From positions 1,632,890-1,696,889 of the forward strand of contig NZ_CP132480.1 in NCBI RefSeq assembly GCF_030770395.1: a DNA stretch of 64,000 nt. Reading direction: 5' to 3'. The position numbers and the translations under genes are program-made. The notes under the pieces were generated by a model, which did no database searches, had not been told where the DNA came from, and saw only the letters and a program-made list of their open reading frames with translations. Origin of the DNA: Telluria beijingensis. GTDB taxonomy: Bacteria > Pseudomonadota > Gammaproteobacteria > Burkholderiales > Burkholderiaceae_D. Position 1 is the first letter of the stretch; the number at the start of each line of letters is the position of its first letter. Of the stretch, positions 3,141 to 57,518 are shown piece by piece.

Positions 3141-3770
3141 TCAGTTCCAGCTGCGCATCAGGCCAACCGCCAGGCCTTCGAGCGCGAACTCTTCGTCGGG
3201 CGTGACTTCGATCACCTTGAAGTCGGGATTCTCGGGCAGCAGTTCGACCAGGTCGCCCGTCTTGCGGTAGCGCTTGACGGTAACTTCCTCGCCCAGGCGG
3301 GCCACGACGATCTGGCCGTTCTTGGCGCTGTCGATTTTCTTGACCGCCAGGAAGTCGCCATCCATGATGCCGGCGTCGCGCATCGACCAGCCTTTTACCT
3401 TGAGCAGGAAATCGGGCCGCGCCGCGAACATTGCGGTGTCGACGTTATACGTCGCTTCGACGTGTTCTTGCGCCAGGATCGGATTGCCGGCGGCGACGCG
3501 GCCGACCAGCGGCAGCGACATCAGCGAGGGAGGGGGCATCGGGATCTGCTCGACGCTGGCGCCCACCAGGCGGATGCCGCGCGAGGTGCCTGGCGAGATC
3601 TCGATCGCGCCCTTGCGCGCCAGCGCCTGCAGGTGTTCTTCGGCCGCATTGGCCGAGCGGAAGCCCAGTTCGGCCGCGATTTCGGCCCGGGTCGGAGGAA
3701 AACCCGTGTTCTCGATCGCTTCCTTGATCAGGTTCAGGATCTGTTCTTGCCTTGCAGTGAGCTTGAGCAT
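3141..3770 (-). CDS. lexA: LexA repressor, SOS regulator
   Basis: LexA represses DNA-damage genes until RecA filaments trigger its self-cleavage. The 209-residue protein has an N-terminal winged helix ([23 protein letters not shown], residues 25-47). The scissile bond is Ala94-Gly95 in VGRVAAGNP. The S24-family dyad is Ser129 ([10 protein letters not shown]) and Lys166 (EVTVKRY). The start at MLKLTARQ is chosen because it matches the family N-terminus; an in-frame ATG 22 codons earlier lies upstream of the SOS box and would abolish autoregulation. An SOS box sits 34 nt upstream of the start. Confidence 0.97.
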
Positions 3771-3803
3771 AAATATCTTGCGGAAACGGGTTATAGAGGT
3801 AGA

Positions 3804-3819
3804 CTGTATTTTTGTACAG
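3804..3819. promoter_or_regulatory. SOS box (LexA operator) of lexA
   Basis: The sequence CTGTATTTTTGTACAG fits CTGT-N8-ACAG, and the flanking A/T extends the palindrome by one base pair on each side. It lies 34 nt upstream of the lexA start codon, as expected for autorepression. Confidence 0.9.
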
Positions 3820-3959
3820 TATTCTGCTATATGCAAGGGTTATACGCCGAAAAGCGCAAAAAAATCGCCCTTATCACACGAAATACGCTTTCCGCAAGCA
3901 ATTGTCGAGTGACTTTTGGACTGGTGAGCCGGTCAAGCGCCGAGACCTTGACAGCCTGG

Positions 3960-3988
3960 TTCCCATTTCCTCCATTTCACGCTATACT
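3960..3988 (+). promoter_or_regulatory. Probable sigma-70 promoter of the rpsF operon
   Basis: TTCCCA (3960-3965) is separated by 17 nt from TATACT (3983-3988), about 76 nt upstream of the rpsF start. A stronger-looking TTGACA at 3948 is 29 nt from this -10 box and so cannot pair with it. Confidence 0.5.
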
Positions 3989-4015
3989 AGCTGGCTGTTC
4001 CCTTCCCACACTCGT

Positions 4016-4058
4016 CTTGACGCCGAGGTGGGCATTTATGTAAAACGTCCTCAAGGAG
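4016..4058 (+). promoter_or_regulatory. Candidate S6:S18 autoregulatory leader of rpsF
   Basis: CUUGA (4016-4020) can pair with UCAAG (4051-4055), enclosing a CCG-containing segment (GCCGAGGUGGGC) just before the AAGGAG ribosome binding site. An rpsF leader with a bulged CCG that binds the S6:S18 complex is known in many bacteria. Sequestration of the binding site fits that mechanism, but the fold was judged by eye. Confidence 0.4.
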
Positions 4059-4064
4059 TAATGC

Positions 4065-4457
4065 ATGCGTCATTATGAAATCGTTTTTATCGTCCATCCG
4101 GACCAGAGCGAACAAGTCCCGGCGATGATCGAGCGTTACAAGACCACGGTGACCAGCCGCGGCGGTAACATCCATCGCGTGGAAGACTGGGGTCGCCGCC
4201 AGATGGCCTACCAGATCCAGAAGCTGCCAAAAGCCCACTACATCTGCCTGAACATCGAGTGCGACAACGAGACCCTGGTCGAGCTGGAAACCGCATTCAA
4301 GTTCAATGATGCCGTTCTGCGTCATCTGACCGTCAAGATGAAGAAAGCGGAAACCGCACCGTCGCCGATGATGAAATCGGTGCAGCGCGAAGACGCAGCC
4401 AAGAGCCACCGCGCAGAAGCAGCCGCTCCTGCAGCTGCCCCGGCTGCCGCTGCCTAA
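4065..4457 (+). CDS. rpsF: 30S ribosomal protein bS6
   Basis: The 130-residue protein begins [19 protein letters not shown] and carries the bS6 core ([29 protein letters not shown]). It binds bS18 on the small-subunit platform. The C-terminus is a low-complexity Ala/Pro tail ([14 protein letters not shown]). ATG at 4065 is used rather than the out-of-frame ATG at 4061, with AAGGAG at 4053-4058. It is the first gene of rpsF-priB-rpsR-rplI. Confidence 0.97.
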
Positions 4458-4499
4458 GATTTTTTCCAGGAATTCGTAGTAACGTAGCAGAAGAACCGG

Positions 4500-4790
4500 G
4501 TGAGCCAGCTCCAGCTCGTGGCGACCATCGCCGAGCGTGATGTCCTGCGCTACACCCCGGCCGGCGTGCCGATCGTTTCAGCCGTCCTGATGCACAGTTC
4601 GCATCAGCGCGAAGCAGGGATCGATCGCCTGGTCGAGTTCGAAGTCCCCGCGTTCGCCGCGGGCGAGATTTCGGGCAGGTTCGGAAGCGCCGAGCTCGGC
4701 GCCAGCTACCGCTTCGACGGATTCCTCGCTAGAAAAAATCGCAACAGCAAAGCCCTGGTGTTTCACATCATTGATTTCAGTGCCGCCTAG
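4500..4790 (+). CDS. priB: Primosomal replication protein N (PriB)
   Basis: This 96-residue single OB-fold protein (LVATIAERDVLRYTPAGVPIVSAVLMHSSHQREAGIDRLVEFEVPAFAAGEISGRF) is homologous to SSB. It stabilises PriA on DNA during replication restart. It starts at GTG and lies between rpsF and rpsR, its usual place in beta- and gammaproteobacteria. The size is close to the normal ~100 residues. Confidence 0.92.
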   Translation: MSQLQLVATIAERDVLRYTPAGVPIVSAVLMHSSHQREAGIDRLVEFEVPAFAAGEISGRFGSAELGASYRFDGFLARKNRNSKALVFHIIDFSAA

Positions 4791-4821
4791 TTCGGCAATT
4801 TAGATATACAGGAGCCTCAAA

Positions 4822-5112
4822 ATGGCATTCGGTAAAAAGTTCGACAAAAACAAAGCTAAAGAAAAACTCAAGCGCAAGCAGCAGAACCCGCTGTTCAAGC
4901 GCAAGAAGTTCTGCCGCTTCACCGCCGCTGGCGTTGAGCAGGTTGACTACAAAGACGTTGACACCCTGAAGGACTTCGTCCAGGAAAACGGCAAGATCAT
5001 GCCAGCACGTCTGACCGGCACCAAGGCTCACTACCAGCGTCAGGTCGACACCGCCATCAAGCGCGCCCGTTACCTGGCGCTGCTGCCGTACACCGACCTG
5101 CACCACGGTTAA
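4822..5112 (+). CDS. rpsR: 30S ribosomal protein bS18
   Basis: The 96-residue basic protein contains the bS18 signature ([24 protein letters not shown] and ITPAR-like [33 protein letters not shown]). It pairs with bS6 in the 30S platform. The N-terminus is an extended Lys-rich segment ([22 protein letters not shown]). CAGGAG precedes the ATG. Confidence 0.97.
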
Positions 5113-5150
5113 TCGTCGGTCACGACAGTCAGATATCCTGGAGATAAAAC

Positions 5151-5603
5151 ATGCAAGTTATTCTGTTGGAAAAAGTTATCAACGTCGGCAACCTGGGCGA
5201 CGTCGTCAAAGTCAAGGATGGTTACGCACGTAACTTCCTGATCCCGCAAAAGATGGCCCGCCGCGCTACCGCCGGCGCCGTCGCCGAGTTCGAAGCCAAG
5301 CGCGCCGAACTGGAAAAAGCAGCCGCCGAGAAACTGGCAGCCGCCCAAGCCCAAGGCGACAAGCTGAGCGGTCTGACCGTCACCATCGGCCAGAAGGCCG
5401 GCGTCGACGGCCGCCTGTTCGGTTCGGTCACCAATGCCGACATCGCCGAAGCGCTGACCAAGCAAGGCTTCCCGGTTGAAAAGTCGGCTGTTCGCCTGCC
5501 GACCGGCCCACTGAAGACCACCGGCGAATTCCCGGTTGCAGTCGCGCTGCACACCGACGTCGTGTCGGAAATCACCATCGCTGTCGTGGGCGAAGCTGCC
5601 TGA
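5151..5603 (+). CDS. rplI: 50S ribosomal protein bL9
   Basis: The 150-residue protein has the normal bL9 length. The N-terminal domain reads [36 protein letters not shown], followed by the long connecting helix ([24 protein letters not shown]) and a C-terminal domain. It binds 23S rRNA near the L1 stalk. It is the last gene of the ribosomal operon, followed by a strong terminator. Confidence 0.97.
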
Positions 5604-5628
5604 TAGCATGTAGTGAAAGCAGTACCAG

Positions 5629-5654
5629 AAAAGCCGGGCTTGCCCGGCTTTTTT
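5629..5654 (+). terminator. Rho-independent terminator of the rpsF-rplI operon
   Basis: An 8-bp stem AAGCCGGG / CCCGGCTT with a CTTG loop is followed by a T6 run, 28 nt after the rplI stop. Confidence 0.9.
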
Positions 5655-5703
5655 GCTTTTGAAATTCACCAATTATGACAGCCGTGTGACAGGAGAAGGT
5701 ATA

Positions 5704-7101
5704 ATGCCGCCCATGAACGCAGCACCCGCCGACCCGCAACTCGAAGCACTACGCATCCCCCCGCATTCCATCGAAGCAGAGCAGTCCGTCATCGGCGGTC
5801 TGCTGCGCGACAATGCGGCCTGGGACCGTATCGCCGACTTCATGCATGCGGAAGACTTCTACCGTTACGATCACCGCATCATCTTCGAACAGATGGTGCG
5901 CCTGATCAATGCCGGCAAGCCGGCCGACGTGATCACCGTCTACGAAGCCTGCAACCAGCTCGGCAAGGCCGAGGACGTGGGTGGCCTGCAATACCTGAAC
6001 GCGATGGCGCAGAACACGCCGTCGGCCGCCAATATCCGCCGTTATGCCGAGATCGTGCGCGACCGCGGCATCCTGCGCCAGCTGATCACCGTCGCCGACG
6101 AAATCTCGGGTAATGCCTTCAACCCGCAGGGCAAAGAAGTAAAACAGATGCTCGACGAGGCGGAATCGCAGATCTTCGCCATCGCCGAACAGGGCGCCCG
6201 TGGCGCCCAGGGCTGGCTGGCAGTGCAGCCGCTGCTGACCCAGGTGGTCGAGCGCATCGACGAACTGTACTCGCGGGAAAACCAGGGCGAGATCACCGGC
6301 GTGCCGACCGGCTTCATCGACCTCGACCGCATGACTTCCGGCCTGCAGCCGGGCGACCTGGTCATCGTCGCCGGCCGTCCGTCGATGGGCAAGACCGCGT
6401 TCTCGGTCAATATCGGCGAGAATGTCGCGATCGAGGCCGGCCTGCCGGTCGCCGTGTTCTCGATGGAGATGGGCGGCGCCCAGCTGGCCATGCGTATGCT
6501 CGGTTCGGTCGGCCAGCTCGACCAGCACCGCCTGCGTACCGGCCGCCTGAACGACGAGGACTGGCCGCGCCTGACGCATGCCATCCAGAAGATGAACGAT
6601 GCCCAGCTGTATATCGATGAAACGCCGGCATTGAATCCGATCGAAATGCGCGCGCGGGCACGACGCCTGGCGCGCCAGTGTGGCAAGCTCGGGTTGATCA
6701 TCGTCGACTACCTGCAGCTGATGCAGGGTTCCAAGCCGGGCGACAACCGCGCGTCCGAGATCTCGGAGATCTCGCGTTCGCTGAAAGGCCTGGCCAAGGA
6801 ATTGCAGTGCCCCGTGATCGCGCTGTCGCAGCTGAACCGCTCGCTGGAACAACGCCCCAACAAACGGCCCGTGATGTCCGACCTGCGCGAATCCGGCGCT
6901 ATCGAACAGGATGCGGACGTGATCATCTTCCTGTACCGCGACGAAGTCTACAACCCGGATTCGCCTGATAAAGGCACCGCCGAGATCATCATCGGCAAGC
7001 AGCGTAACGGTCCGATCGGGGCGATCCGCCTCACCTGGATCGGCCAGTACACCAAGTTTGGCAACTACAGCGGCAACCTGTCCATCTACCAGGGCGACTA
7101 A
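5704..7101 (+). CDS. dnaB: Replicative DNA helicase DnaB
   Basis: DnaB is the hexameric 5'-3' helicase at the fork. The N-terminal primase-interacting domain begins PPHSIEAEQSVIGGLLRDN. The RecA-like motor has Walker A (AGRPSMGKTAFS), Walker B (LIIVDYLQLM) and motif H4 (DLRESGAIEQDADVIIFLYRD). The start at 5704 is supported by AGGAGAAG at 5691-5698 with 5-nt spacing, giving 465 residues, the family norm. An upstream in-frame ATG would overlap the rplI terminator. Confidence 0.97.
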   Translation: MPPMNAAPADPQLEALRIPPHSIEAEQSVIGGLLRDNAAWDRIADFMHAEDFYRYDHRIIFEQMVRLINAGKPADVITVYEACNQLGKAEDVGGLQYLNAMAQNTPSAANIRRYAEIVRDRGILRQLITVADEISGNAFNPQGKEVKQMLDEAESQIFAIAEQGARGAQGWLAVQPLLTQVVERIDELYSRENQGEITGVPTGFIDLDRMTSGLQPGDLVIVAGRPSMGKTAFSVNIGENVAIEAGLPVAVFSMEMGGAQLAMRMLGSVGQLDQHRLRTGRLNDEDWPRLTHAIQKMNDAQLYIDETPALNPIEMRARARRLARQCGKLGLIIVDYLQLMQGSKPGDNRASEISEISRSLKGLAKELQCPVIALSQLNRSLEQRPNKRPVMSDLRESGAIEQDADVIIFLYRDEVYNPDSPDKGTAEIIIGKQRNGPIGAIRLTWIGQYTKFGNYSGNLSIYQGD

Positions 7102-41628: not shown

Positions 41629-42882
41629 TCAGTGGAAGTGCTCGGTACCGGTCGGTGCGTCTTCCGGCATTTCGGCATGTACCAGTTCGCCGGTAGGATC
41701 GGCAAACAGGGGAGAGCCGCAATCGTCGCAATACTCGGCCACGTAGCGTTCGTTGATGCGCTTGATGTGGGCGATGCCGGCGTCGTTCAGGTGGGCCGCG
41801 ATCTCGTTGATCGGCGACAGCGGCGTGGCCTGGACCGCCAGCGGGCCTTCCATCGGCGTGCCGTTCTCGTCTTCTTGCCCGTACAGCGGCCAGACGATGC
41901 CATAGATCACGTCGGCACTCTGGCGCATGGTGAACGAGATGCGGTATTCGTCGATCTGGATGTCCGGCGCTTCTTCGCCGAAGCCGGCGATCACGGCGCG
42001 CAGGTCGGACGCTTCCACGCCCAGCGTATTGGTCAGGTAGTGCACGGCTGCGCGGATCGAGATCGGGCGAATGAGTTTGTCGGCTTCGCGGCAGGCCACG
42101 TAATACGCTTCCGGCAGCAGCAGCTCGATGCCGCAGCCCGGCAGCAGGCGCGCGACATTTGCGGTCGCCTGCGCGCGCCACTGCTCGAGGCTGCGCTCGC
42201 GCTCTTCGGCGAAGCGCAGCTGATGCTGCGGCTCTTGCCAGCGGAACAGCGGCTCGCCGACCGGGGCCACGACCGCGACCAGCAGGTAACGGGTGTCGGC
42301 CAGGAAGGGTGCGGTCTCGTCGAGGTGCGGCGCCGGCTTGATGGTGCCGCCCTTGTGGGCGGCTGCCGCCAGCTTTTGCGTCAGCGCCGCGGTTTCGGCG
42401 TGGGTGCGCGGCAGCTGGTCGAGCGAGTACAGCGTCGGCGCCATCGCCATCTTCGTGCCCTCGGCCAGCAGGTGGGCCGAGAAATGGGCGCCCAGCGTCG
42501 ACAGCAGGTCGTTCGGGATGGTGCCGGTGGCGATCGAGAAGCGGGTCCAGGCGAGGATCGGTGCCGCGACCAGCAGGGCTTGCCAGGTGACGTCGCCGCC
42601 GCCGGCCTGCTCGACCATGGTCGACGATTCGCTCACCGCCTCGACGGTATCCATCAGCACGTCGTAGGAGGCGAGGTCGTCCTTGAAGAGAAGGTTCAGG
42701 GCGCTGTCGATGCTGTCCTGGTGATTGGTCTTGAGCAGCTTTTGCAGCTGCGTGTCCAGCTGGCGTTCCCACGCGCGCTCTTCGGCGCGGCTGGCAGCTT
42801 GCATGAGGGCTTGCGAGAGGCTGACGAGGCGCTGGCTTTCTGCGGAAAGTTTTGGAGTTGAATCTTTGGAAGGACGACGCAT
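41629..42882 (-). CDS. DUF2863-like protein
   Basis: The 417-residue protein begins MRRPSKDSTPKLSAESQRLVSLSQALMQAASRAEERAWERQLD and looks soluble and alpha/beta. It has a conserved-looking centre (LLVAAPILAWTRFSIATGTIP; TKMAMAPTLYSLDQLPRTHAET). A CDDCGSPLF motif near the C-terminus could bind metal. I match it from memory to DUF2863 of betaproteobacteria, whose role is unknown. Confidence 0.65.
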   Translation of the reverse strand: MRRPSKDSTPKLSAESQRLVSLSQALMQAASRAEERAWERQLDTQLQKLLKTNHQDSIDSALNLLFKDDLASYDVLMDTVEAVSESSTMVEQAGGGDVTWQALLVAAPILAWTRFSIATGTIPNDLLSTLGAHFSAHLLAEGTKMAMAPTLYSLDQLPRTHAETAALTQKLAAAAHKGGTIKPAPHLDETAPFLADTRYLLVAVVAPVGEPLFRWQEPQHQLRFAEERERSLEQWRAQATANVARLLPGCGIELLLPEAYYVACREADKLIRPISIRAAVHYLTNTLGVEASDLRAVIAGFGEEAPDIQIDEYRISFTMRQSADVIYGIVWPLYGQEDENGTPMEGPLAVQATPLSPINEIAAHLNDAGIAHIKRINERYVAEYCDDCGSPLFADPTGELVHAEMPEDAPTGTEHFH

Positions 42883-43028: not shown

Positions 43029-43057
43029 TTGCACAATGCGCGAACAGGGTACATAAT
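43029..43057 (+). promoter_or_regulatory. Candidate sigma-70 promoter under Fur control
   Basis: TTGCAC (43029-43034) and CATAAT (43052-43057) are separated by 17 nt. The -10 box is 5/6 consensus; the -35 is weaker. Expected transcription start is ~43064. Confidence 0.55.
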
Positions 43058-43073
43058 GAGAATAATTCTCATT
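43055..43073. promoter_or_regulatory. Fur box
   Basis: AATGAGAATAATTCTCATT is a perfect 19-bp palindrome and a near-ideal Fur site. It overlaps the -10 box and start point, the usual geometry for iron-dependent repression. Confidence 0.88.
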
Positions 43074-43241
43074 CAAACATGTTTGGGAATTGATTGGAGT
43101 GTTCAAGTTGTGTTTCCAACTTGTGTTGCAAGCTGTAGCCGTTGGCGACCGGGAAAGCGCTAACGGATGTTTCTCACGGAGTACCACCCCCGCCGGGCAA
43201 CCGGATTCGCCCCTCCTGGCTGTGCCAGGGGGGATTTTTTT
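43064..43241 (+). ncRNA. Candidate iron-repressed small RNA
   Basis: The ~178-nt segment from the predicted start to the terminator holds no plausible protein. It can fold into stem-loop 1 (CAAGTTG 43104-43110 with CAACTTG 43117-43123) and stem-loop 2 (CCGTTGGCG 43139-43147 with CGCTAACGG 43158-43166, nine pairs with one G-U). A single-stranded C-rich stretch (about 43181-43207) and a terminator hairpin with a U7 tail follow. This resembles Hfq-dependent iron-sparing RNAs such as RyhB, PrrF, NrrF and BrrF in architecture, not in any sequence I can recall. It could instead be a piuC leader. Confidence 0.6.
43211..43241 (+). terminator. Rho-independent terminator upstream of piuC
   Basis: A 10-bp stem (43211-43220 with 43224-43233, one G-U pair) with a UGU loop is followed by A and T7. 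It ends 23 nt before the piuC start codon and after no recognisable coding gene. Confidence 0.9.
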
Positions 43242-43264
43242 ATTGGCGCAGTGAATACAACGAC

Positions 43265-43948
43265 ATGATGCTGCATATCCCTGGCGTGCTGACGCCGGAA
43301 CAGGTGGCCCACATCCGCGCACGCATGGCCGGCGCACCCGAATGGCTGGACGGCCGCGAGAGCGTGGGCCCGCAAGGCGCGCAGGTCAAGCGCAACCGGC
43401 AACTGGGCGAGGGCACGCCGCTGGCCGTCGAACTGGGCCAGATCGTCAGTGCGGCCCTGATGGCGAACCCGCTGTTCTTTTCCTGCGCGTTGCCGCTGCG
43501 GGTGCTGGCGCCCTATTTCAATGCCTACGGCGGCGGCGAGCATTACGGGCTGCACGTGGATGGCGCGATCCGGGCCCAGCGGGCGGGCGGGGCGCCGGTG
43601 CGGGCCGATGTGTCAACCACGGTGTTCCTGAGCGAGCCCGAGGACTACGATGGTGGCGAACTGGAAGTGGTCGATCTGTACGGCACCCACGAGGTCAAGC
43701 TGGCGGCGGGCGATGCGATCGTGTATTCGTCGGGCAGCGTGCACCAGGTGCGGCCGGTGACGCGCGGCGAACGGGTGGCGTCGTTCCTGTGGACCCAGAG
43801 CATGGTGCGTGACGACGGCAGGCGCGCGATGCTGTTCGATCTGGATGCGCAGATACAGAAGCTGCGTGCGCAGCATGGCGACTCGGAGATCACGGTGGGC
43901 TTGACGGCGCATTATCACAACCTGCTCCGGATGTGGGCCGAGGTGTAA
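43265..43948 (+). CDS. piuC: Fe(II)/2-oxoglutarate-dependent hydroxylase, PiuC/YbiX type
   Basis: The 227-residue protein has the family length. Iron ligands are His and Asp in [10 protein letters not shown] and a distal His in [16 protein letters not shown], whose Arg binds 2-oxoglutarate. PiuC genes are iron-regulated and usually accompany siderophore receptors; none is adjacent here. No Shine-Dalgarno is obvious, and a strong terminator sits immediately upstream, so expression depends on read-through, processing or an unseen promoter. Confidence 0.88.
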
Positions 43949-44060: not shown

Positions 44061-46727
44061 GTGGATATCGCTCGCGAACTCAGAAGTCTCATCGAGACTG
44101 GAACTGACCTCAACGCTGATAGCCGCCCGATCCGGCTGCGGCTTTTCCATCAGGGTAAACAGAGCGGCAATATTCTGCTGCCCCAGTCGATTAGTGGTAC
44201 CGAAACCGTATGTGGCGGCTTCAAGTACCAGGTCGACTGTGTGGCGACCTCTTGCAAGCTCCCCCTGAAAGAGTTTATCGGCCTGCCGGCCACGCTGGAA
44301 TTCGTCAACGACCGAAGGCAGTTGCGCCACATAAGCGGGATCGTCGCGCAGGCGAGTTCGGGCGAGTCCGACGGCGCCATCTCCAGCTATCGCATCGTCA
44401 TCTGCGACGCGATGACGATCATGGAGCAGCGAGTCAATACGCGTGTGTTCCGGCGTTTGAGCTGGCCTCAAATCGTGATCGTCGTGCTGAAGGAATGGTT
44501 GCAGATACACGGGGTGCTGGCCGGGGCCTTCGACTATGAATTTGCAGATGGTTTTCGGCTTGAGAACTATTCGGAGCGCGAGCAGACGGTGCAGTTCAAC
44601 GAATCCGATGCGGCCTTCGTGCGCCGTCTTCTCGGTCGTTCCGGCATTGCATGGTTCTTTCGATCCGGCGGTAGCCGCGCATTGCAGCACAATCGCCAGG
44701 CGGGCGAGTCGATGGCGATACATACGCTCGTGCTGCTCGACGCGCGAAGCAGTCTTGCGCGGAACGATGCCGGCGTTGTTCGTTATCACCGCGATGACGC
44801 TACCGAACAACGCGACTCCATCACGCGATGGGGAGCCGTGCGTAAGCTCCAGGCAGGTGGCACCAGTGTATTCAGCTGGGATTATAAGCAGCCTGCGAAT
44901 ACCCCATTGATGCTCGTCGAGGCGCCGGGAAAGATCGATCAGGGACGGTCGGGTAACCGGTTGGCCGGCGGATTGCAGGAATACATCGTCGAATCTCCGC
45001 ATGTCGCGACGAACAGCGACGAACTGTATCGTAGTGGCCTGCTTCGCATGCAGCGCAAGGAACTCGATGCGAAATGCTTTGTTGGGGAGGGAACGGTACG
45101 CGATTTTCGTGTGGGTGAATACTTCACGATCACGAACCATCCAGAGATCGACGGCCATCTCGTTGCCGACCGCGATTTCGTCATCACGGCACTCGAGATC
45201 AGGGCACGGAACAACTTGCCGCGAAGTCTGGAAGAGCGGGTGCAGCGCCTATTTGCGAACAGTGGCTGGGGGGAAGATCAAGAAAGCAGGAATGGCGGGG
45301 ACAGAAACGCGCATCCGTTCCAGATGCGATTCGAGGCCGTCCGGCGTGCCATTCCGATCGTTCCGGCATTCGATCCGCGGATCGATCTGCGCGATCCCGG
45401 CCTTCAGACTGCACTTGTGGTCGGCGGGAAAAACGAGACCGTTCATTGCGATGAATATGGTCGCGTAAAAATCCGATTTCCAGCAACGCGTCCGGCTGAC
45501 CACCAGCACACGGGCGGTGCCGGCGCGTCGGATACGGACTCGGATTCAGCCTGGGTGAGGGTGGCAAGCAACTGGGCCGGCACAGGGGATTCACATTGCG
45601 GCACTCTCGGCCTGCCACGTGTGGGGACGGAGGTGCTGGTCGCGTTCATCGGCGGCGACCCGGATAAGCCCATCGTCATCTCCCAGCTATATAACGCACA
45701 TGCCTTGCCACCGCCGTTGAGCAAGAACGCGAACCTGCCAACGACACGCTACCTGTCGGGCATACGTAGCCAGGAGATTCAAGGCTGGCGCGCCAATCAA
45801 CTCCGACTCGACGACACGCCGCAAGAAATCAGCGCGCAGTTGGCGAGTGACGACGGTGCGTCGCAACTCAATCTGGGATGGCTGACGCATCCGAGAGGCG
45901 AGCGTCGCCAGCCGCGTGGCGAAGGCGCGGAGCTGCGCAGCGACCACGCGGTAGCGATTCGTGGCGGTAAAGGTGTGCTGATCACTGCCGATGGCCGTTC
46001 CAAGGCCGAAGGTAATCAGTTGGAGCGGGCCGAGTTGCTAGGGCTTGCCGACGGATTGCGCGATATCGCGGACCAGCTGGCAAAGCTGGCCGAAACGCAT
46101 GCCAAGGATCCGGACAATGGCCCGTTGCTGGGTCAACTGGTGGACAAGCTCAGGCATCTGGATCACGGAACCAATGCCGTCGAAGGCGGCTCAGGTGGCG
46201 CCCCCATTGTTGCCATCAGCGGACCGGCTGGGATCGTCATGGCAAGCTCGGAAAGCCTGGCGTTGGGCGCGGAGAAGAATATCGATATGGTCGCGGCTGC
46301 GGATACGCATCTGGCTGCGGGCGGACGGACGACGGTGCGAGCGGCCAAGGGGCTCAGCGCATTCGCGAATGACGGTGGTATCAAACACATCGCGGCTAGG
46401 GGCGATATACAGACGGAAGCGCAGGATGGTGTCGTCAATCTGATAGCGCAGAAGGTCATGGAGCTGATCAGCAATACAGATTGGATCAATATCAAAGCCA
46501 GAAAGGGTGTCCGGATCTATGGCGGTGGCAGTGAGTTGAAGATTAGCGCCGAAGGCATTGTCGGCAACACGACTGGCAATAGTCATATGCATGCGGCTGA
46601 TCACCAGACCTTTGCCAAGAAGGCGTCCGAGGTGCAGTTTCCTGACGAGCTGCCGCATCACGATATTTGCATTCCTTGCATGCTCGCGGCGGCGCGTGCG
46701 CATAGTCCATTGGTGGAGGCGGAATGA
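44061..46727 (+). CDS. vgrG: Type VI secretion tip protein VgrG
   Basis: The 888-residue protein has the gp27-like N-terminal module (FHQGKQSGNILLPQSISGTETVCGGFKYQVDC...; QFNESDAAFVRRLLGRSGIAWFF) and the gp5-like OB fold (VHCDEYGRVKIRFPATRPAD; GTEVLVAFIGGDPDKPIVISQLYNA). The C-terminal DUF2345 beta-helix region carries the repetitive KNIDMVAAADTHLAAGGRT. It ends HHDICIPCMLAAARAHSPLVE, with no added effector domain. The GTG start has GGAGG 5 nt upstream. No T6SS core genes are nearby, so this is an orphan islet; it overlaps the next gene by ATGA. Confidence 0.95.
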   Translation: MDIARELRSLIETGTDLNADSRPIRLRLFHQGKQSGNILLPQSISGTETVCGGFKYQVDCVATSCKLPLKEFIGLPATLEFVNDRRQLRHISGIVAQASSGESDGAISSYRIVICDAMTIMEQRVNTRVFRRLSWPQIVIVVLKEWLQIHGVLAGAFDYEFADGFRLENYSEREQTVQFNESDAAFVRRLLGRSGIAWFFRSGGSRALQHNRQAGESMAIHTLVLLDARSSLARNDAGVVRYHRDDATEQRDSITRWGAVRKLQAGGTSVFSWDYKQPANTPLMLVEAPGKIDQGRSGNRLAGGLQEYIVESPHVATNSDELYRSGLLRMQRKELDAKCFVGEGTVRDFRVGEYFTITNHPEIDGHLVADRDFVITALEIRARNNLPRSLEERVQRLFANSGWGEDQESRNGGDRNAHPFQMRFEAVRRAIPIVPAFDPRIDLRDPGLQTALVVGGKNETVHCDEYGRVKIRFPATRPADHQHTGGAGASDTDSDSAWVRVASNWAGTGDSHCGTLGLPRVGTEVLVAFIGGDPDKPIVISQLYNAHALPPPLSKNANLPTTRYLSGIRSQEIQGWRANQLRLDDTPQEISAQLASDDGASQLNLGWLTHPRGERRQPRGEGAELRSDHAVAIRGGKGVLITADGRSKAEGNQLERAELLGLADGLRDIADQLAKLAETHAKDPDNGPLLGQLVDKLRHLDHGTNAVEGGSGGAPIVAISGPAGIVMASSESLALGAEKNIDMVAAADTHLAAGGRTTVRAAKGLSAFANDGGIKHIAARGDIQTEAQDGVVNLIAQKVMELISNTDWINIKARKGVRIYGGGSELKISAEGIVGNTTGNSHMHAADHQTFAKKASEVQFPDELPHHDICIPCMLAAARAHSPLVEAE

Positions 46728-57092: not shown

Positions 57093-57518
57093 ATGTCGGA
57101 AGCCGTGAGAGAAGCAAGCAAGAAAGGGCGGCCGGTGTATCGCAACGTCGGATTCGGCGATATCACGACGAAATATCGCATGCCGCCGTCGGCGATCGTG
57201 TCGATCCTGCACCGCGTCAGCGGCGCCGGGCTGTTCCTGCTGCTGCCGTTCCTGCTCTACCTGTTCCAGCAGAGCCTGCTGTCGGAATCGTCGTTCGGCT
57301 ACTTCGCCGGCATCGTGTCGCACCCGCTGGTCAAGATCATCCTGCTGGGCCTGTCGTGGGCCTACCTGCACCACTTCACCGCCGGCATCCGCCACCTGTT
57401 CATGGACAACCACTTTGCCCTGGACAAGGATGCAGCGCAATCGACCGCACGCTGGGTGCTGATCATCAGCCTGCTGCTGACCGCAGTGGTTGGCCTGAAA
57501 CTGTTCGGAGTGTTTTAA
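57093..57518 (+). CDS. sdhC: Succinate dehydrogenase cytochrome b556 subunit
   Basis: The 141-residue protein has the SdhC start (RPVYRNVGFGDITTKYRMPPSAIVSILHRVSGAGLFLLLPFLLYLF) and three membrane helices. HHFTAGIRHLFMDNH carries the heme-region His. It anchors complex II and helps form the quinone site. The GGGAGG ribosome binding site at 57078-57083 is the possible target of the candidate sRNA at 43064. The 272-nt upstream region is AT-rich around 56930-56960 (AAAATATATTGG), a possible -10. Confidence 0.92.
   Translation: MSEAVREASKKGRPVYRNVGFGDITTKYRMPPSAIVSILHRVSGAGLFLLLPFLLYLFQQSLLSESSFGYFAGIVSHPLVKIILLGLSWAYLHHFTAGIRHLFMDNHFALDKDAAQSTARWVLIISLLLTAVVGLKLFGVF

Follow-up and report, generated by a model that had tools for sequence, protein, structure and literature searches.

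What is made from the DNA between a Fur-controlled promoter and a gene that is presumably piuC in Telluria beijingensis? The window, meaning the whole 64,000-nt stretch of DNA analysed here, carries at this point a short region that a sequence-only reading had taken for a structured transcript of the iron-sparing sRNA kind. Comparison across the genus supports a version of that proposal. The locus is likely an iron-repressed, trans-acting sRNA with a conserved 3' module.

Promoter, Fur box and coding potential in the window

The features of the locus are as follows.

41629..42882, − strand: DUF2863 gene, divergent neighbour, used for the tree (Pfam PF11062)
43029..43057, + strand: sigma-70-type promoter by sequence (TTGCAC at 43029-43034, a 17-nt spacer, CATAAT at 43052-43057)
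43055..43073, + strand: perfect 19-bp Fur box over the −10 box and the expected start site
43064..43241, + strand: predicted sRNA, its start placed from the −10 position and its end at U7
43104..43123, + strand: 5' stem-loop 1, in the window and its nearest relatives only
43139..43166, + strand: 5' stem-loop 2 with invariant loop ACCGGGAAA, in 10 genomes of one subclade
43178..43194, + strand: C-rich stretch GGAGUACCACCCCCGCC, delimited by conservation, its last two bases opening the mini-hairpin; proposed target-pairing seed
43193..43204, + strand: mini-hairpin CCGG[GCAA]CCGG
43211..43241, + strand: Rho-independent terminator with U7 and a covarying stem
43265..43948, + strand: presumed piuC, encoding a PKHD-type 2OG-Fe(II) oxygenase (Pfam PF18331, PF13640), reachable by read-through

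A promoter scan returns the same promoter shifted by one base, the TTGCAC −35 hexamer having been assigned by eye. The Fur box, AATGAGAATAATTCTCATT, has 0 mismatches and is the sole match with up to three mismatches within the window, while 0 of 100 shuffles contain a match. It overlaps the −10 hexamer, as the sequence-only reading had stated. From the position of that hexamer, transcription would start inside the Fur box near 43064 and give an RNA of about 178 nt. The ATG of piuC lies 23 nt beyond the last T of the terminator at 43241, also as first described, and since these 23 nt leave hardly any room for a promoter, piuC is probably reached by read-through, the coupling that the earlier reading had raised. 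Such read-through would hold the iron-using piuC enzyme low relative to the upstream product. Directly 3' of piuC lies a gene for a VgrG-type T6SS protein (44061-46727), and the same is seen in L003 and L010.

Three ORFs on the + strand, 44, 54 and 33 aa long, overlap the predicted RNA, and the piuC frame in the window is open upstream as far as a TTG at 43142. These frames would allow for a gene encoding a short peptide, for a piuC that begins further upstream or for a dual-function RNA, a reading whose probability is next to negligible given four observations. Among the 22 genomes with both core and piuC, 13 keep the piuC frame open across the core and 9 have it closed; the length of the core varies by 1 nt between species, both in the C run and before the terminator; a Pfam scan of the 54-aa ORF gives no match; and the region 5' of the core is lineage-specific. 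The core is thus not a conserved ORF, and the RNA is apparently non-coding, which upholds the earlier judgement that no credible protein fits.

Structure and conservation of the 3' module

The predicted fold of the window RNA consists of two 5' stem-loops, a C-rich stretch that is mostly open, and a terminator whose stem (43211-43233) has 10 pairs and is followed by T7 at 43235-43241. Folding and a terminator scan thereby reproduce the architecture that had been described from the sequence. The folding energy of the window is not exceptional against shuffles (z of −1.31, −1.34 and −1.49, with 21, 18 and 15 of 200 shuffles as good), and two relatives are somewhat better (−2.56 and −2.74). Thermodynamic stability was accordingly set aside as evidence, and the case rests on conservation and covariation.

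Within the core, covariation lies in the terminator. In an alignment of the core from 21 sequences (A1), 95.5% of cells pair and 5 of 15 pairs have changed on both sides, all of them among the 11 pairs of the terminator stem. This level is reached by 0 of 500 shuffles, and slid controls are 28-58% paired. The mini-hairpin is nearly invariant and its loop (GCAA, GAAA, GAGA or GCGA in the window and relatives) varies within GNRA only, so that it yields no covariation signal. In the second 5' stem, 5 of 9 pairs have changed on both sides and 95.6% of cells are paired (10 sequences); in the first, one pair of 7 has done so, and 5-6 of the 10 sequences have letters on both sides. Over the whole given structure, 97.7% of cells pair in the 10 genomes of the window subclade and 7 pairs have changed on both sides, which 3 of 500 shuffles reach; the number of pair types in this subclade is not above shuffles (245 of 500). 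Stem-preserving changes in relatives, which the sequence-only reading had named as its own test, are therefore present in the terminator and the second 5' stem. Stem-loop 2 occurs in all ten genomes of the subclade, and stem-loop 1 in five, with a fragment in a sixth. In G020 (L125/L005), stem-loop 1 appears to be duplicated, and this genome has the longest leader, with 135 nt from Fur box to core.

The part of the RNA that is shared more widely is much shorter than the predicted transcript. The structured unit of about 178 nt is predicted in the window as proposed, but the conserved unit is only its last ~65 nt, made up of the C-rich GUACCACCCCCGCC, the CCGG[GNRA]CCGG mini-hairpin and the terminator. 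A DNA search of 62 genomes of the genus (Massilia/Telluria) gives matches in 27; those in G001 and G034 lie around the Fur box only, and the more distant core-bearing matches cover mainly the last ~60 nt. A covariance model built from the 21 sequences of A1 finds the core in 25 of the 62 genomes at E ≤ 8.3e-12, all weaker matches having E ≥ 9.2e-5. Eight weak matches of 27-36 bits (L056-L063) were inspected by eye and look like other terminators. In a family sample of 294 genomes drawn evenly from 44 genera, strong matches fall only within the genus (15 genomes) and the best outside it reaches 2.3e-4; as scoring covered 18 candidates per genome, weak relatives may have escaped it. A scan of 84,980 species genomes for the exact core pattern returns 19 loci (17 Massilia, 1 Telluria, 1 Oxalobacteraceae sp.), a lower bound since only exact matches count.

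A Fur box with up to two mismatches lies upstream and a T run of at least 5 ends the core in 25 of 25 core-bearing genomes. The distance from Fur box to core is 54-135 nt in 16 genomes (54-127 nt in the stand-alone-type leaders other than that of G020) and about 2.4 kb, behind piuA, in the remaining 9. From the start of the core to the piuC ATG there are 78-88 nt in the 22 genomes having both.

Divergence separates the module into two parts. Across 110 pairs between two deep subclades, drawn from the 21 of 25 core-bearing genomes in A1, the C-rich stretch and mini-hairpin (columns 4-29) differ by 4.7%, the linker and terminator (columns 30-59) by 33.5% and the terminator loop by 71.8%. For the same pairs, four-fold sites differ by 27.5% in DUF2863 and 39.2% in piuC, and codon positions 1+2 by 8.6% and 10.0%, the piuC values coming from pairs that have piuC. 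The C-rich stretch and mini-hairpin thus diverge 6-8 times less than four-fold sites, while the linker and terminator are about as divergent as these, which places constraint on sequence in the C-rich stretch and mini-hairpin only. The core has what appear to be the parts of an Hfq-type sRNA (a U tail, a terminator and an open C-rich segment), and the window RNA would presumably be transcribed, responsive to iron and bound by Hfq.

History of the locus and the question of a cis role

The gene piuC is present in 57 of the 62 genus genomes at E ≤ 1e-40; in G037 (L164) it matches in two pieces, and a frameshift is possible. The commonest gene order has DUF2863 on one side of the Fur box and piuA followed by piuC on the other, the gene that we take to be piuA encoding a TonB-dependent receptor by Pfam. 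A DUF2863 tree of 54 genomes, made by a quick method with SH-aLRT as its only support, places the core on one side of a branch with a value of 99: 25 of 26 rows there have it and 0 of 28 opposite. Eight of the 62 genomes stand outside the tree (the locus of 6 was not fetched, and the stretches of G006 and G023 are without DUF2863), all of them without a core match. The sole core-less member of the clade, G047, has lost piuA and the core together, so the core is dispensable there.

Three arrangements coexist within the core clade. Nine genomes have piuA, core and piuC; 13, the window included, have core and piuC without piuA; and 3 have the core alone. The tree needs 6 changes for piuA, 2 for the core and 1 for piuC. 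By our reading of it, piuA was lost four times inside the core clade (on a 14-row branch and in G024, G041 and G047), and the core was retained after three of these losses. In the nine piuA-type genomes, the core begins a few nt past the piuA stop, in the position of a 3' UTR; in the window, piuA is gone and the core is not behind a stop codon in the same operon. The location directly upstream of piuC, which the sequence-only reading had used to describe the RNA, is accordingly true of the window but incidental to the module, which lies between piuA and piuC in nine genomes and has no piuC at its locus in three.

Of 18 genomes searched, 16, among them that of the window, gave no close piuA (E ≤ 1e-150), the best 58 of up to 75 candidates being scored in 7 of the 18. 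It is in place in G007 and at another locus in G018. The relocated piuA of G018 (L124, C15, about 3486-5987) has its own Fur box and a core-like terminator, which accounts for a second model match in this genome, but no C-rich stretch. The core itself stayed at the old locus (L114), where a piece resembling the end of piuA is left on its 5' side, by eye. Such a remnant, together with the position of the core in the piuA-piuC spacer of nine genomes, is what would be expected if the core were a functionless leftover of a deleted piuA 3' region. That origin without function is highly improbable, as a relict would hardly combine the low divergence of the C-rich stretch and mini-hairpin given above with a terminator and a Fur box retained in every core-bearing genome.

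The three genomes with the core alone (G033, G042 and G043) bear on how the module acts. Their old locus keeps only the Fur box and core; past the SDR and LysR genes there is a diverged piuC of 61-65% identity, next to which G033 and G043 have a receptor gene, diverged as well, and at which the contig of G042 ends. The next long ORF after the stand-alone core is convergent in all three, shorter ORFs over this neighbour not being taken as genes. Pfam identifies this neighbour as an aconitase gene in G033 and G042 and as a gene for a sensor histidine kinase in G043. Aconitase is a usual target of iron-sparing sRNAs. The C-rich stretch has no good match at the start of the convergent aconitase gene (L106/L107), as read in G042.

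These arrangements bear on the choice between a trans-acting RNA and a purely cis-acting leader or attenuator, in which the terminator would set piuC expression and the core would perhaps serve as a sensor or anti-terminator. The core lies just 5' of piuC, at the near-constant distance given above, in 22 of 25 genomes, and a different GC-rich hairpin stands, by eye, in the piuA-piuC spacer of several core-less sisters. The latter indicates that a spacer hairpin is older than the core, and it is a plausible forerunner of it. A leader of this kind is nonetheless unlikely to be the whole function. A Fur box and core alone before a convergent gene, as in the three genomes above, argue against it; G047, G054, G051 and G011 have the Fur box and piuC with neither piuA nor core; and the most conserved part is the C-rich stretch, not the hairpin. 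A trans role is the best reading of a core that persists without a gene behind it to control. This independence from a neighbouring coding gene holds for the 3 genomes whose locus lacks both piuA and piuC, not for the other 22, and because piuC follows the core in those 22, a cis role in addition is possible.

The trans-acting sRNA would work as follows. In iron sufficiency, Fur would sit on the promoter. In iron starvation, an RNA of about 180 nt would be made and end at the terminator, with some read-through into piuC. Its working part would be the 3' module, with the C-rich seed, the GNRA mini-hairpin and the terminator with its U tail, and this module most likely pairs with target mRNAs at G-rich ribosome-binding sites, with petA of cytochrome bc1 as one candidate. 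The 3' module would have arisen once in the genus, in the piuA-piuC spacer, and would have become a gene of its own on the loss of piuA, and in one lineage also of piuC, from the locus.

Candidate targets and known iron-sparing sRNAs

Targets were ranked over 1178 script-predicted start regions (27% of the RNA's own genome), an earlier set having held 614. Some script-called starts are wrong, for example inside long genes, and background ranks are therefore rough. An energy ranking that took in accessibility and allowed wide loops brought mainly wide-loop duplexes to the top and was replaced by one with compact duplexes. An exact 10-mer complement of the C-rich stretch was likewise uninformative in the same genome, with 5 matches against 27 for the reversed control; one of the 5 is the locus itself and four lie, by eye, at no evident start site. 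The C-rich stretch itself suggests pairing with G-rich ribosome-binding sites.

The best iron-related candidate is petA (Rieske domain by Pfam), at rank 11 of 1178 and 5 of 614. Its Shine-Dalgarno and start region GUGGGGUUGGUAU is predicted to pair with GUACCACCCCCGC at 12 of 13 positions. Of 2000 shuffled seeds, 98 form a petA duplex at least as stable as −19.8 kcal/mol; under 120 shuffled seeds, petA never came within the first 5 places and came within the first 20 in 9 cases. The site is present in 24 of 24 core-bearing genomes tested (the same in 22, stronger in G007, weaker in G049), a tally that leaves out core-bearing G009 and core-less G045. It is also identical in core-less G047, G034 and G040 and weak in G011 and G030, so that the petA site predates the core. 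Neither the petA nor the sdhC site shows coevolution with the core across the genomes compared. In G041, the sole substitution within GUACCACCCCCGCC hits the mismatched position and makes the predicted petA duplex continuous at −29.4 kcal/mol; this is one event and may be chance. Four tested genomes with a longer C run have predicted petA duplexes of −18.1 to −19.0. Judged from complementarity, control of cytochrome bc1 through petA is a hypothesis, and a rather doubtful one.

Other iron-related genes rank lower. In its own genome, sdhC has moderate complementarity and ranks 156 of 1178 and 101 of 614; other genomes with the core give it ranks of 32-101, and core-less G015, G034 and G032 do as well or better (32). 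The gene lies 14 kb downstream of the core, with its start at 57093-57518 of the window, and its Shine-Dalgarno region reads GGGAGGUGUACC in the window-subclade members read and mostly GGGAGGUGUU in other members of the genus. Complementarity to acnA, read in G042 only, is poor (rank 1093). Most sodB-type genes are likewise poor: four core-bearing genomes give ranks of 867-1150 and core-less G034 gives 986, and of the two in the window's own genome one ranks 233 and the other 1070 from its likely start. A CBS-domain gene ranks 2 of 1178, and GGGGUGG precedes its start in all 19 core-bearing genomes compared; as the same holds for 3 of 5 core-less genomes, this is no specific evidence for a target.

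Sequence families do not place the RNA among known sRNAs. Rfam at gathering score gives no match at the locus and, within the window, only a tRNA elsewhere. RyhB, PrrF and NrrF have Rfam families and are not among the permissive matches at the locus (E up to 5) or those in 12 related loci (E up to 1). What stands of the proposed likeness to RyhB, PrrF, NrrF and BrrF is thus a Fur-controlled, structured, probably trans-acting RNA; no Rfam family cut-off is reached. The matches to anti-hemB (RF02837; 17.8-22.6 bits against a gathering score of 49.5) and GcvB (RF00022; 20.9 bits against 42, E 0.0077) are full-length though weak and were set down to chance or analogy, anti-hemB resembling the core in having a C-rich stretch before a terminator. 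The G/U-rich segment GUUGUGUUU at 43104-43150 resembles the GcvB consensus of that weak match.

Among described iron-responsive sRNAs, the closest parallels are functional and positional. Excerpts on NrrF, which is also Fur-controlled and from a betaproteobacterium, describe petABC repression in Neisseria meningitidis as a validated target, with a site just inside the ribosome-binding-site boundary (PMC5586341); here, where petA is the best iron-related candidate, the predicted site lies over the petA Shine-Dalgarno and start codon. BrrF of Burkholderia cenocepacia, as described in part of its report, is induced in low iron, has a Fur box upstream and comes from the 3' end of hemP, apparently cleaved from its mRNA and ending short of the terminator (PMC7377471). 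Like the core, it is tied to the 3' end of an iron-uptake mRNA in Burkholderiales; by that description the core is set apart, as its locus is DUF2863/piuA/piuC rather than the hemP 3' end and its terminator is included. Partial texts on IsrR of staphylococci and FsrA of Bacillus subtilis present both as Fur-regulated, C-rich RNAs that act on Shine-Dalgarno sequences, and describe IsrR as without synteny or sequence common to other iron-sparing sRNAs (PMC9410917, PMC11257911). One of the C runs of IsrR differs in length from species to species, like that of the core, but both RNAs are from Firmicutes, and IsrR has three C-rich regions against one in the core (PMC9410917, PMC11257911).

The shared location of MalH and MicX at an mRNA 3' end, with a promoter of its own for MicX, is the nearest precedent for the two arrangements in the sections available (PMC9438474); in contrast to these, the same conserved module occurs here in both arrangements within one genus, and the losses of the parent gene can be traced. 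The available passages on RusT of Caulobacter describe an sRNA of iron starvation that is controlled by NtrYX and lies at a locus of another kind (PMC11005374), and those of a Herbaspirillum sRNA survey report no Fur or iron control (PMC7011215). Among the openly licensed literature matches listed, there is no described iron-responsive Oxalobacteraceae sRNA and nothing recognisable as this locus, an absence that is not proof.

A fuller account can be put forward tentatively and with less than even confidence. In it, a Fur-controlled, C-rich, Shine-Dalgarno-directed module would have been born once in the piuA-piuC spacer of one Massilia clade, turned into a separate gene on no fewer than three occasions when the receptor gene was lost from the locus, outlived piuC too in one lineage and come by convergence to an NrrF-like control of cytochrome bc1. 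To our knowledge, it is rare to have extant forms that stand between an operon spacer and an independent sRNA gene. In the present case, relatives that include several named and cultured species each keep a different stage in the birth of an sRNA gene, and the preservation of these stages makes both that birth and what is gained on loss of the parent gene directly testable.
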